A DNA stretch of 64,000 bases from Anaerolineae bacterium (lineage in GTDB: Bacteria; Chloroflexota; Anaerolineae; Aggregatilineales; Phototrophicaceae). A program made the position numbers and the translations under genes. The first letter of the stretch is position 1, and every line of letters starts with the position of its first letter. The notes below the pieces were generated by a model that saw only the letters and a program-made list of their open reading frames with translations, was not told the DNA's origin and did not search any database. The stretch lies in contig JABWBO010000007.1 in the NCBI GenBank assembly GCA_013360465.1, positions 186,001-250,000 of the forward strand, written 5' to 3'. This document shows positions 17,071 to 23,969 of the stretch, one piece after another.

Positions 17071-17449
17071 GTGTTCAAGCCCACCTATAAGCCGCATTCT
17101 GTAGACGAGCCGAAGCTCGCCCGGCGATCATCTCTCTTGCGCCCGCATTGCTGCGGGCGTCATGCAGTCTACCCGGCGCGGGACGGGCCGCCCCACTGCG
17201 CCTGCTTGACCTTGCTCCCGACGGGGTTTGCCCAGCCGCGATCATCGCTGACCGCGCTGGTGGTCTCTTACACCACCGTTTCACCCTCACCGGCGAGGGT
17301 CGCCCCTCGCTTAGGCAGTACGCCTCTCTGTTGCACTGTTCCGGCAGGTCGCCCCACCCTGGCTGTTCACCAGCGTCGTACCCTGTGGAGTGCGGACTTT
17401 CCTCAGCCCGGCAAAACCGGACCGCGATCACCCGGTCGGCTTGAACACG
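17071..17449 (-). ncRNA. rnpB: RNase P RNA
   Basis: The minus strand from 17449 reads GTGTTCAAGCC and the 3' end reads GGGCTTGAACAC (17082-17071), forming helix P1. Near the 5' end is GAGGAAAGTCCGCACTCCA (the universal CR-I core), then GAACAGCCAGGG, GGGTGAAACGGTGG and, near the 3' end, ACAGAATGCGGCTTATAGG (CR-V). These are defining blocks of bacterial RNase P RNA, the ribozyme that matures tRNA 5' ends. The length of about 379 nt is normal. Open reading frames across this interval are spurious. Confidence 0.95.
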
Positions 17450-20162: not shown

Positions 20163-21824
20163 TTAGTGTTCATTGATCACGCCAAAGACCATCGGGCGGC
20201 GCTTCGTCTCGTTGTAGAGCATACGACTCAGCGACTCTTGCAGCAGCTCGCGGCGTTTGCCATTGCGCGATGCGCGCGAACCGGCAAGGACATCGTTGAT
20301 CGTCTGCTTGACGCTCGTCATCAGGCGATCTGCATCTTTCAGGTAGACGAACCCCCGCGAGATGATCTCCGGATCGCCGATCAGGCGTCCGGTCTCGGAT
20401 TCAACGTTCGCCACCACCATGATGAAACCGTCGCGCGCCAGGATTTCGCGGTCGCGCATCACCGCCCTGCCGATGTCGCCAACGCCTCCGCCATCCACGA
20501 AAACATAGCCGCCGGGGATGCGCTCGCCGACGCGAATGCTGTGCTTATCCACTTCAATGACCATGCCGTTTTCGACGACAGCGATATTCGGCTGAGGAAT
20601 GCCCATCATCACTGCCAGACGCGAATTGGCGCGCAGATGGCGCAGTTCGCCATGCACCGGCACAAAAAACTTGGGGTTGGTCAGGGTCATCATCAGCTTC
20701 ATCTCTTCCTGACAGGCGTGTCCCGAGACGTGGACCGGCGCAATCGGATCGTAGATGACATCCGCGCCGCGCTGGAAGAGCTTGTTGATCGTCCGGCTGA
20801 CGGTCTCCTCATTGCCGGGGATGGTATGTGCGGAGACGACAATCGTATCGCCGGGGGTCACATCCAGGCTGCGATGCTGCCCCGTCGCCAGCCGCCCCAG
20901 CACCGCCGACGGTTCCCCCTGCGAGCCGGTCGCCATGATCACCAGCTGGTGCGGCAGCACCCCGCTGATGCGATTGAGATCGACCAGGATGTTGTCGTCG
21001 ATGTCCAGCACACCCAGGCGGCGCGCCGTCTTGACGTTTTCCGTCATGCTGTGACCGGCGATTGCCAGTTTGCGCCCATAACGCCGCGCCATATCCGCCA
21101 CCTGCTGCACCCGCGCGATGTGCGATGCGAAGGTCGCCACGATGATGCGCCCGGCCGCCTGTCGGAAGATGTTGTCAAAAGCGACATTGACGATCTGTTC
21201 CGACTGCGTCCAGCCTGGGCGCTCGGCATTGGTGCTGTCGCCCAGCAGCAGCAGCACCCCCCGCCGCGAAAACTCGGCGAGTTTGGCGTAATCGGTGCGC
21301 TTGCCATCGATGGGCGTGTTGTCGAACTTGTAATCACCGGTGTGTACCACCAACCCATGCGGCGTATTGATGCCGAAGCCCACGCAGTCGGGGATGCTGT
21401 GGGTGACATGGAAGCTTTCGATCTTGAAGGGACCGACATCGAAATCTTCACCCGGCTTGAAAACGTTGATCTGAGTCTCACTGATCAGCCGGGCATCACG
21501 AAGCTTGACCTCCAGCAGCGCCGCCGTCAGGGGGGTCGCATACAGAGGGATGCTGGGAAGCGCTTCCACCACATGGGCGACCGCGCCGGTATGATCTTCG
21601 TGTCCATGCGTGTAGAGGATGCCGTGTATCCTCAGCTCGGGGCGGTCCAGCAGGTAGCGAAAATCGGGAATGATGTAATCCACGCCGAGCATATCGTTGG
21701 CGGGGAACATGATGCCGGTATCGATGATGATCGCATCCCCCCCCGATTCGATCACCGTCATGTTCTTTCCGATTTCGCCGCAGCCTCCAATAGGAATAAT
21801 GCGCAGTCTGGGTTTCTTTGCCAT
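20163..21824 (-). CDS. rnj: Ribonuclease J
   Basis: 553 aa from the ATG at 21824. Metallo-beta-lactamase/beta-CASP architecture: IIPIGGCGEIGKN near the N-terminus, THGHEDHTGA with H73, H75, D77 and H78, later HTGDYKFDNTP, GDSTNAERPG and VSGHACQEE, all typical of RNase J. RNase J is a 5'-exo/endonuclease that matures and degrades mRNA and rRNA. An in-frame TTG at 21875 would give 17 extra residues, but conserved homology begins at MAKK. The leader has two inverted repeats and an extended -10 promoter (separate entries). Confidence 0.93.
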   Translation of the reverse strand: MAKKPRLRIIPIGGCGEIGKNMTVIESGGDAIIIDTGIMFPANDMLGVDYIIPDFRYLLDRPELRIHGILYTHGHEDHTGAVAHVVEALPSIPLYATPLTAALLEVKLRDARLISETQINVFKPGEDFDVGPFKIESFHVTHSIPDCVGFGINTPHGLVVHTGDYKFDNTPIDGKRTDYAKLAEFSRRGVLLLLGDSTNAERPGWTQSEQIVNVAFDNIFRQAAGRIIVATFASHIARVQQVADMARRYGRKLAIAGHSMTENVKTARRLGVLDIDDNILVDLNRISGVLPHQLVIMATGSQGEPSAVLGRLATGQHRSLDVTPGDTIVVSAHTIPGNEETVSRTINKLFQRGADVIYDPIAPVHVSGHACQEEMKLMMTLTNPKFFVPVHGELRHLRANSRLAVMMGIPQPNIAVVENGMVIEVDKHSIRVGERIPGGYVFVDGGGVGDIGRAVMRDREILARDGFIMVVANVESETGRLIGDPEIISRGFVYLKDADRLMTSVKQTINDVLAGSRASRNGKRRELLQESLSRMLYNETKRRPMVFGVINEH

Positions 21825-21912: not shown

Positions 21913-21949
21913 CGCCATAAATGTTGAAATCTATGGCGGCATTATAGCA
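21913..21949 (-). promoter_or_regulatory. Extended -10 promoter of rnj with start-site inverted repeat
   Basis: The minus strand carries TGCTATAAT (21941-21949), a perfect -10 with TGn extension. Immediately downstream, CGCCATA (21932-21938) and TATGGCG (21913-21919) form a 7-bp inverted repeat around the expected transcription start; it could be an operator or a 5' stem. Confidence 0.5.
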
Positions 21950-21986
21950 CAAGATCGATCTGAACATTGCAGTCCATATTGCCGGG

Positions 21987-22110
21987 GGGTGCATTTCAGA
22001 TTATTGGGGATACGGGCGGACAACGCCGGCGTTGTCCCTACAAAATGTACCTCCGTAGGGACGATGCCTGCATCGTCCGTTGAAGTACCCAAAATATTGA
22101 AATGCACCCT
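21987..22110. mobile_element. 124-bp MITE-like nested palindromic element
   Basis: The ends are exact 12-bp inverted repeats: GGGTGCATTTCA at 21987-21998 and its reverse complement at 22099-22110, with weaker matching inward. The element is flanked by TTGCCGGG direct repeats (21979-21986 and 22111-22118), consistent with an 8-bp (possibly 9) target-site duplication. Each half contains a hairpin: 22018-22037 and 22059-22078, both continued by a CCCTAC/GTAGGG block. It encodes no protein. It lies between the rnj promoter and the end of the GCS2-like gene. Confidence 0.75.
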
Positions 22111-22166
22111 TGCCGGGGCTGCCCGATGCACCCTGTTCTGTCGCTTGTGAGGCACGCTGCTGAGCA

Positions 22167-23969
22167 TTAACCACCCAGGTAGCGGTCGATGAGCGCGTCA
22201 TGCACCCGATTCACAACTTTCAGGACGGCGTCGGGACAGTGATCGCCAACCACGCCACCCGCTTCGATATAGGCATTCTTCAGGATTTCCCCCCAGTTTC
22301 CGGTGCTGCGCAGTTTGGTGTCCTTGATGAATTCCTCAATCGTCTGCGCGGAGTGCCCGCTGGGCGGTTCCAGCATGCGAATGAAGCTGGAATAGACCTC
22401 GTCGATGTCGCGCGGCATGATCTCTTCGATCTCGTCCAGCGCCTTGTGCATATAGCGCCGCTTCATCTCGTAGAAATCTGCCAGGCTCATGTCGCGTCCG
22501 CTGTTCAGGTGTACGGACGCTTCGACGCCAACCAGGTCAGACCGATCCTGCTGCGCTTTGAACGACTCCAGACTGATCGGACCAAAGAGGTCCCACATCA
22601 CCGGGTCATCGTGCATCGGCTCCAGGTCGCAGCCATGCTTGCGGAAATACAGTTCGATGACGACATGGCTGAACTCGAAGTCGATCAGCACCGCCGCCAT
22701 GCGCGAAGGGCTGATGTTGGTCGGCATCCCGGTCGATTCGACCGTGCAGACGCGCTTCGACGTGCTGAGATCGGGGCGAAGTCTGCCGATCGGATTGTGC
22801 ATGACCGAGATCTTCTCGTTCAAATCATCGTTATACATGTTGGCGCGTCCGGTGGAGTTGGCGCGTTCCAGCCGCAGCAGCTCGCCGTAATTCTCCAAGC
22901 CGCCTTCCATCAAGTGCGGGCTAAGCGGCAGGTCGAGATAGCGCCCGGTGACGGTCGTCCCGCGAACGTATTCGCGCGTACACAGCAGTTCGGGGTCACA
23001 GGTCCCGTTGATGAACGGGCATCCTTTGAGGAAGGCGGCATTGGCGACTGCCGTAGCACTTTTCAGGACGGTGTAGAAGGTCAGTAGACCCAGCGCTTCA
23101 GAACGCCCGGCGATGTCGATATGAATGTGGCAGCCCTGGTTACGAAACATGTTGACGTAGTGCGAGGTCGCCGGGTCAACGTGATAACGCGCCTGCGCTT
23201 CCGCCAGCTTGCGCGCATATTCCGGGAACATGCCGTTCACCTGAAGCATGAGATCGACAGCGGTATCGACCTTTGGGTGATCCGTCATCTTGAAATCGGA
23301 TTCGGTGGGGTAGCTGGAGAATATCAGCGTACGCAGTCCGGTGTCACGGCAGGACGCTATCAGCGCCCCCATCATGCCGTTGAGCGCCATGCGCGTCTTG
23401 TGATACCCCACGCTTGGCGCGACATGCGCCTCGACCTGATAGGTGCAGGCTTCGCGGTCCAGGTGGGGATAGACGCCGATGCGCAGCGCGTGGTTGTAAT
23501 ACGCCTGCATGAAACCGCGCACTTCCGCCTCGGAGGGTGAACGCCCATCTTCATGTACCAAGCCCAGCTCCAGCTCCGCTCCCAGCACGCGCAGCCGCGT
23601 ACTGGAGTCTTCGGTGGTTCCGACGTTGGTATGGTTGACGCTGGGATTGAGATTGTAAGGGACCAGGCTGTGCAGGAAATCGTAGCCCGTCCGATAGCGC
23701 TTGCTGACCGTGCTGCCCAGGACGATGTTTCTGCCGTTGATCGGCGTCATCAGGACATTGCCGAGACTCAGGTCTTCAGTGCCATACAGCGCCACCACGG
23801 GATTTCCAACGGCGTCCGAGAATCTATCCAGCGGCAGGCGGTCGTCCGGATGATTTTCAGAACGGAGGGTCTCAAGCGCACGGTTGAAACCGCGGTGCAT
23901 ACGCTCGACTTCGTCCCAGGCGACATCCTGGCTGAAAGCGGTGAGTTCGGCATTCGACGGCAGCCTCAT
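22167..23969 (-). CDS. Glutamate-cysteine ligase (GCS2)-like ligase
   Basis: 600 aa. GAELELGLVHEDG, CTYQVEAHVAPSVG and CHIHIDIAG are arranged like the metal/ATP-binding strands of the GCS2/carboxylate-amine ligase superfamily (E.E, Q.E, H.H), and the overall order fits glutamine-synthetase-fold enzymes that join glutamate to an amine. The first 100 and last 100 residues do not match anything I recognise, and the protein is longer than typical YbdK-type ligases. GGGGGA precedes the ATG at 23969. Product and amine partner are unknown; glutathione synthesis should not be assumed. Confidence 0.55.
   Translation of the reverse strand: MRLPSNAELTAFSQDVAWDEVERMHRGFNRALETLRSENHPDDRLPLDRFSDAVGNPVVALYGTEDLSLGNVLMTPINGRNIVLGSTVSKRYRTGYDFLHSLVPYNLNPSVNHTNVGTTEDSSTRLRVLGAELELGLVHEDGRSPSEAEVRGFMQAYYNHALRIGVYPHLDREACTYQVEAHVAPSVGYHKTRMALNGMMGALIASCRDTGLRTLIFSSYPTESDFKMTDHPKVDTAVDLMLQVNGMFPEYARKLAEAQARYHVDPATSHYVNMFRNQGCHIHIDIAGRSEALGLLTFYTVLKSATAVANAAFLKGCPFINGTCDPELLCTREYVRGTTVTGRYLDLPLSPHLMEGGLENYGELLRLERANSTGRANMYNDDLNEKISVMHNPIGRLRPDLSTSKRVCTVESTGMPTNISPSRMAAVLIDFEFSHVVIELYFRKHGCDLEPMHDDPVMWDLFGPISLESFKAQQDRSDLVGVEASVHLNSGRDMSLADFYEMKRRYMHKALDEIEEIMPRDIDEVYSSFIRMLEPPSGHSAQTIEEFIKDTKLRSTGNWGEILKNAYIEAGGVVGDHCPDAVLKVVNRVHDALIDRYLGG

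Follow-up and report, generated by a model that had tools for sequence, protein, structure and literature searches.

A MITE with ISKra4-like ends that carries a tail-to-tail dimer of GTAG REPs in uncultured Chloroflexota

Prokaryotic Mutator-type elements, among them ISKra4, are reported to produce repeats 8 or 9 bp long (PMC3942029), and it is the ISKra4-family insertion sequences and the MITEs derived from them that the element reported here resembles in its outer structure: in its ends, its duplications of 8-9 bp, its lack of genes, its dispersal and the existence of a transposase-bearing element with identical 21-bp ends. Unlike MITEs derived from insertion sequences, it has as its interior a dimer of REPs and not a recognisable insertion sequence remnant. 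This interior is like the GTAG REPs, RAYTs and REPtrons of PMC3733652 and PMC2817692, as far as the available portions of these papers go, in its GTAG foot, short stem-loop and tail-to-tail heterodimer, and further in its alternative complementary stem residues, in RAYT genes flanked by REPs and in some intragenic REPs; alternative stem residues and heterodimers of GTAG REPs are described in the accessible text of PMC3733652. Unlike the REPs of REPtrons, however, the dimer lies within a DDE-type MITE that has its own ends and target duplications. The GTAG-15 dimers of Anabaena variabilis (PMC3733652) are also REP dimers within a long palindrome; the passage on that palindrome, in the portion available, ties it to no insertion sequence or target duplications, and its consensus looks unrelated by eye. 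Insertion sequences are known to target REPs (PMC1525189), and here likewise mobile elements are found at the REP hairpins of several MITE copies, where a whole hairpin of 20-21 bp flanks the nested element on both sides. In the accessible text of a MITE review (PMC10969869) the words ISKra4 and RAYT do not occur, and a REP dimer inside an ISKra4 MITE is not recognised in the partly available literature on ISKra4, MITEs, REPs and BIMEs, RAYTs and Chloroflexota. A REP dimer in a long palindrome is nevertheless already known, and a MITE with REP cargo is a variant of known things.

The window, by which we mean the whole stretch of 64,000 nucleotides that was analysed, is G000:C84:186001-250000, where G000 is the source genome (5.93 Mb in 256 contigs). 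At 21987..22109 it holds, as judged from sequence inspection and from the copies of the family, a MITE of 123 bp to which no strand is assigned; the original prediction of a MITE-like element with a duplication was borne out, with its length, given as 124 bp, corrected. On either side stands TTGCCGGG (left, 21979..21986; right, 22110..22117; neither stranded), a target-site duplication that is now 8 bp long where the family norm is 9, which would be explained by loss of a G from a run of G residues. The inverted ends are exact over 12 bp, as had been claimed, with GGGTGCATTTCA on the left (21987..21998, plus strand) and TGAAATGCACCC on the right (22098..22109, minus strand), the exact ends of the MITE being GGGTGCATTTCAGATTATTGG and CCAAAATATTGAAATGCACCC, and its two arms, 21987-22041 and 22055-22109, are 71% complementary. 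Each arm contains a 20-nt hairpin whose 9-bp stem encloses 2 nt: hairpin 1 is GGACAACGC-CG-GCGTTGTCC (22018-22037) and hairpin 2 is GGACGATGC-CT-GCATCGTCC (22059-22078). Together with their feet these make up REP 1 (GTAG + GGACAACGCCGGCGTTGTCC; 22018..22041, minus strand) and REP 2 (GTAG + GGACGATGCCTGCATCGTCC; 22055..22078, plus strand), whose GTAG feet face one another over an unstranded 13-nt linker (22042..22054). The inner hairpins are two distinct GTAG-tagged REPs, arranged tail to tail, with stems that already differ. Two stem pairs distinguish hairpin 1 from hairpin 2 and each is altered on both sides, exactly as the sequence had first been read. With room for at most 41 codons the MITE has no coding capacity. 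Its predicted folding is strong, both as single-stranded DNA (-38.2 kcal/mol, z -6.4) and as RNA (-76.3 kcal/mol, z -8.5), with 0 of 200 shuffles as good in either case. A 13-mer search of the window for further inner hairpins, allowing 3 mismatches, found 26 matches where chance alone would give 22.9, and hence no clear additional copy.

The left-hand neighbour was correctly named as rnj: the gene at 20163..21824 (minus strand) belongs to the RNase J family (TIGR00649, 566 bits against a cut-off of 400). Its adjacency and the strong RNA fold are the points that speak for regarding the element as a structured RNA, or a regulatory part of the RNase J locus, whose inverted ends are due to chance. 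This is the least probable of the alternatives that we weighed, however, as many copies lie elsewhere, the element matches no Rfam family at gathering score, and a terminator-like hairpin outside the element (21913..21938, minus strand) separates it from the RNase J gene; a scan returned 2 terminator-like sites against 0.4 expected. On the same grounds a known RNA family (no Rfam match) and an RNase J regulatory element (dispersed copies and the intervening hairpin) were both rejected. The one Rfam match at gathering score is elsewhere in the window, a bacterial RNase P class A RNA gene at 17072-17443 on the minus strand (239 bits). On its other side the MITE is adjoined by an open frame of 600 aa (22167..23969, minus strand), which is upstream of it in the frame's own direction of transcription; the name 'GCS2-like' given to this neighbour could not be confirmed, as neither Pfam nor NCBIfam assigns the frame to a family at E 1e-5. 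Because the MITE lies between the stop codon of this upstream frame and the terminator-like hairpin, the window copy is probably a piece of the transcribed 3' untranslated region of the upstream gene.

Copies of the MITE are numerous in two genomes. The search of the source genome returned 30 loci, 22 of them with E <1e-30, and these represent at most 26 insertions, because four pairs of loci are the halves of one interrupted copy each; three pairs (L028/L018, L014/L026 and L022/L030) were joined through a common locus in the genome of the sister species, G006, and the fourth (L024/L020) through its duplication. Exact copies of the 12-mer end number 46 in the source genome, and allowing one mismatch raises the count to 83, where the reversed control gives 2. 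Although 8 of the 41 genomes searched have a match at E 0.001, full-length copies are confined, among the matches listed and with up to 21 candidates scored per genome, to G000 (at least 24 matches) and G006, from which at least 21 full copies were retrieved, so that the element is not single-copy. For the counts that follow we used 34 full copies, 13 from G000 and 21 from G006, with four shared insertions counted in both; this set holds only end-to-end copies, reverse-orientation self-matches and one repeated locus having been removed. An exact 9-bp duplication flanks 13 of the 34, and 18 when up to one mismatch is allowed, against none of the mismatched-flank control pairs; a few copies have 10-bp duplications. 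The family therefore agrees with the 8- or 9-bp direct repeats of ISKra4-derived elements.

Empty sites were found for two copies other than that in the window. The L161 copy in G006 (601-719) is flanked by 10-bp copies of a target that is single in G000 (L004), and the L010 copy in G000 splits a target that is single in G006:C54; its two flanks, once joined, form a 401-column alignment with that site at 96.5% identity and with one gap. The window insertion is common to both genomes, so that G006 is useless as an empty site there, and in G012 the flank matches of the window site lie close together and are too diverged for an exact empty site; for L163, G000 yielded matches to MITE copies only, with no flank match. 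The predicted MITE with a target duplication thus has a multicopy family, 9-bp duplications and empty sites for two other copies behind it. Its mobility is ordinary; it is the cargo that is unusual.

The transposase-bearing element with the same ends, which the original prediction had proposed to look for, is found in another species. Scanning genome contigs with the left 21 bp of the MITE (21987..22007, plus strand) gave 77 stretches, all from Chloroflexota or its subgroups, and in one of these (L238, JAKEEQ010000001.1) an element of 1,397 bp with an exact 9-bp duplication has first and last 21 bp identical to those of the MITE, whose right 21 bp are at 22089..22109 (minus strand). Its transposase is spread over two overlapping frames that score 166.9 and 37.8 bits with the ISKra4 model, neither of them reaching the cut-off of 205. 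L133, from a genome of the same family, has an ISKra4 transposase above the cut-off (214.7 bits, with one internal TAG) and closely related ends. For the source genome itself we infer four ISKra4-like insertions from contig ends, four of them left and four right, which exact 9-bp duplications join in pairs. The ends of these insertions differ slightly, with AAGTTRGTGCA following the common 12 bp, and their interior was not recovered, the left-end query being fully matched only at contig ends. The ISKra4 model found no match in G000, no NCBIfam model matched the C-terminal peptide of the ISKra4-like transposase there, and MITE-type ends were not seen with the ISKra4-model matches of G003, G006 and G012. 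Identity with L238 over 21 bp at both ends indicates that an ISKra4-type transposase is most likely the enzyme that moves the MITE.

Elements that share these ends differ in what they carry. The 53 stretches used are those of the 77 that remain without L238 and the 23 from the sister species; they were chosen by end and not by cargo, and those without a partner end within 620 bp yielded no element. Among the elements that share the 21-bp start, REPs are carried by 5 of 11 in JAPPMO, 4 of 4 in WTGF, 1 of 2 in JAPOVL and 1 of 2 in JAEUQX, and by none in JANWXR (0 of 8), JANWYN (0 of 2), JAJEFB (0 of 2) or JAADYY (0 of 1), copies of one MITE type being non-independent in these counts and some MITE types being common to WTGF and JAPOVL. 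Within the four REP-bearing genomes the density of REPs is 2.1 to 9.0 per kb inside the elements and 0 to 0.16 outside. By eye, the REPs in three JAPPMO MITEs (L229, L236 and L268) seem to hold an extra short repeat in the hairpin loop.

The presence of REP-bearing elements with these ends in several species, together with the precedent of GTAG-15 dimers within a long palindrome, could also be accounted for if a RAYT had repeatedly put REP dimers into palindromic DNA, the outer repeats being nothing but its preferred target. On this account the outer repeats would not be the ends of a mobile element, yet it is at the outer ends that the 9-bp duplications lie, the empty sites lack the entire element, other species have REP-free elements with the same ends, and the transposase-bearing element has these ends too. 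The empty sites mostly rule this explanation out, and we consider it highly improbable.

The inner hairpins belong to a population of REPs that extends well beyond the MITE. The REP pattern GTAGGGACN{10,14}GTCC occurs 80 times in the source genome against 11 for the reversed control and is present in 12 of the 15 genomes of the genus; it does not exceed the reversed control in G008 (7 versus 10) or G002 (1 versus 1). Eight of the 15 genomes yielded RAYT genes, and at 21 of 23 RAYT loci a GTAGGG[A/G]C hairpin lies no more than 400 bp from the gene (19 of 21 without the two query loci, which had been chosen for their flanking REPs), against 0 of 47 comparison loci, made up of 17 other Y1 loci and 30 other loci. 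The 23 RAYT loci exclude second gene pieces, one weak fragment and genes without a retrieved locus, and several gene limits among them were joined by hand from two pieces; the 30 other loci were hand-picked, with loci brought in by REP-like matches excluded. At one comparison Y1 locus, L109, GTAGGG[A/G]C hairpins do occur, but ~830 to 1280 bp from the gene, beyond the 400-bp limit. These GTAG REPs are thus associated with RAYT genes in the genus. Four of the 17 other Y1 loci (L104, L127, L107 and L109) have GTAG hairpins with different stems (GTAGCC...) close to the transposase gene. Each of the 15 genomes also has one frame of 551 to 1279 aa (L124, for example) that scores 24.5 to 42.7 bits with Y1_Tnp, whose cut-off is 23.

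A dimer of the kind found in the MITE stands beside one of these RAYT genes. At L199 in G006 the 5' stem sides of a tail-to-tail dimer are GGACAACGC and GGACGATGC, the second stem has a T-G wobble, and the linker is unlike that of the MITE, so that this dimer is a relative and not demonstrably a donor. With the curated REP_Tyr_transpos model (cut-off 80) the RAYT proteins score 80.3 (L125), 67.7 (L123), 67.7 (L198) and 61.2 (L199), and the L199 protein reaches 18.3 in Pfam against a cut-off of 23. In its ortholog in G000, L204, glutamine replaces one histidine of the HUH motif, the C-terminal part differs, and no GTAGGG[A/G]C hairpin lies within 400 bp. The L199 gene, which looks intact, contains an in-frame REP with nearly the first stem of the MITE (VGADNAGVVPT). 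A second REP pair, GTAGGGACGCGATTAATCGCGTCC with GTAGGGACGGCATTCTTGCCGTCC, is 8 nt apart, has its GTAG feet on the outside and recurs in G000 (for example at C24:25-80, C64:9823-9878 and C116:631-686).

The two hairpins with their matched differences had originally been taken as arms of the MITE that drifted apart while selection on the folded DNA or RNA kept them paired. Both differing stem pairs are indeed compensated, folding is strongly predicted for DNA and RNA alike, and every one of the 34 full copies has the hairpin pair when up to 4 substitutions are allowed, partly by construction, as the copies were picked as full-length. Comparison of these copies with one another nevertheless gives a different picture. 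The 13 variants of hairpin 1 show 12 changes on one side of the stem and none on both, and in the 11 variants of hairpin 2 the corresponding numbers are 10 and 1. Over the two hairpins this makes 22 one-sided changes against 1 two-sided, with 16 of 216 cells unpaired. Hairpins have also been lost or rearranged in some copies, L027 having only one and L013 repeated half-hairpins, and both stem types, or near relatives of them, occur outside the MITE as REPs. One-sided change of this kind looks like ordinary decay.

It is at the level of the REPs that matched-pair change is real across the genus. All four inner pairs are formed in 53 of 68 distinct REP 24-mers, where 2000 shuffles average 7.5 and never exceed 17; only inner pairs are tested here because the search pattern fixes the four outer ones. 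These 24-mers were typed among the REP matches listed for G000, G009 and G005 only, taking matches of that length alone and a single representative of each MITE REP. Covariation is therefore a property of the REPs of the genus and is nearly absent among the copies of the MITE, and with 22 one-sided changes against 1 two-sided in the copies, and 53 of 68 REPs paired, selection on the fold of the MITE was set aside as an explanation that is very unlikely to hold. Since the REPs are matched and the MITE copies change on one side, the compensated differences between the arms are best read as two adjacent REPs: the matched differences arise because each hairpin is a separate REP, and REP lineages keep their pairing while the sequence changes.

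We therefore consider it very likely that the element is a composite, a MITE with ISKra4-type ends that carries a RAYT-type dimer of GTAG REPs. As anatomy this composite is well supported, and the enzymes that act on it are inferred. Its outer part would be a non-autonomous MITE with the ends of an ISKra4-type (Mutator-like DDE) insertion sequence, copied by an ISKra4-type transposase that presumably acts in trans on those ends and duplicates ~9 bp of target. Its inner part would be a tail-to-tail dimer of GTAG REPs linked to RAYT, a Y1 tyrosine transposase. The dimer was probably already part of the founding MITE when amplification began and has presumably hitch-hiked ever since, its stems, as cargo of the MITE, decaying through one-sided changes.

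The REP hairpins of several MITE copies have in turn received other mobile elements, with ends CATATGTAGCAAGTTA and CTGACGTTTGGCTCTTTG. The hairpin is repeated on both sides of the nested element over exactly 20 bp in L028/L018, L024/L020 and L280 and over 21 bp in L022/L030, and in L014/L026 the hairpin repeats are alike at 19 of 20 bases. For three of the G000 cases the orthologous MITE in G006 is intact, and the G000 ortholog (L019) of the G006 case L280 is without the nested element, its flanks being 93-95% identical. One nested element, L029, of which one end was seen, codes for part of an IS4-like protein (31.6 bits, below the cut-off of 115), for which Pfam gave no match. Together with the REP-bearing elements of other Chloroflexota, these cases raise the tentative possibility, which we put forward as a minority view, of a recurring partnership in the phylum, in which REP dimers repeatedly enter ISKra4-type MITEs and their hairpins serve as docking sites for insertion sequences. 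Were this true, the partnership would give double elements that a DDE transposase disperses and to which a tyrosine transposase has access, and nested insertions that duplicate exactly the hairpin would point to recognition of the extruded hairpin and not of linear sequence.

Our analysis offers an explanation of striking, apparently compensated hairpins that does without selection on their carrier, the compensation having been inherited from another mobile family. Occupied and empty sites have now been aligned with which movement of either part can be tested. DDE-type MITEs and RAYT-linked REPs, which have been described separately, are thereby linked in uncultured Chloroflexota.
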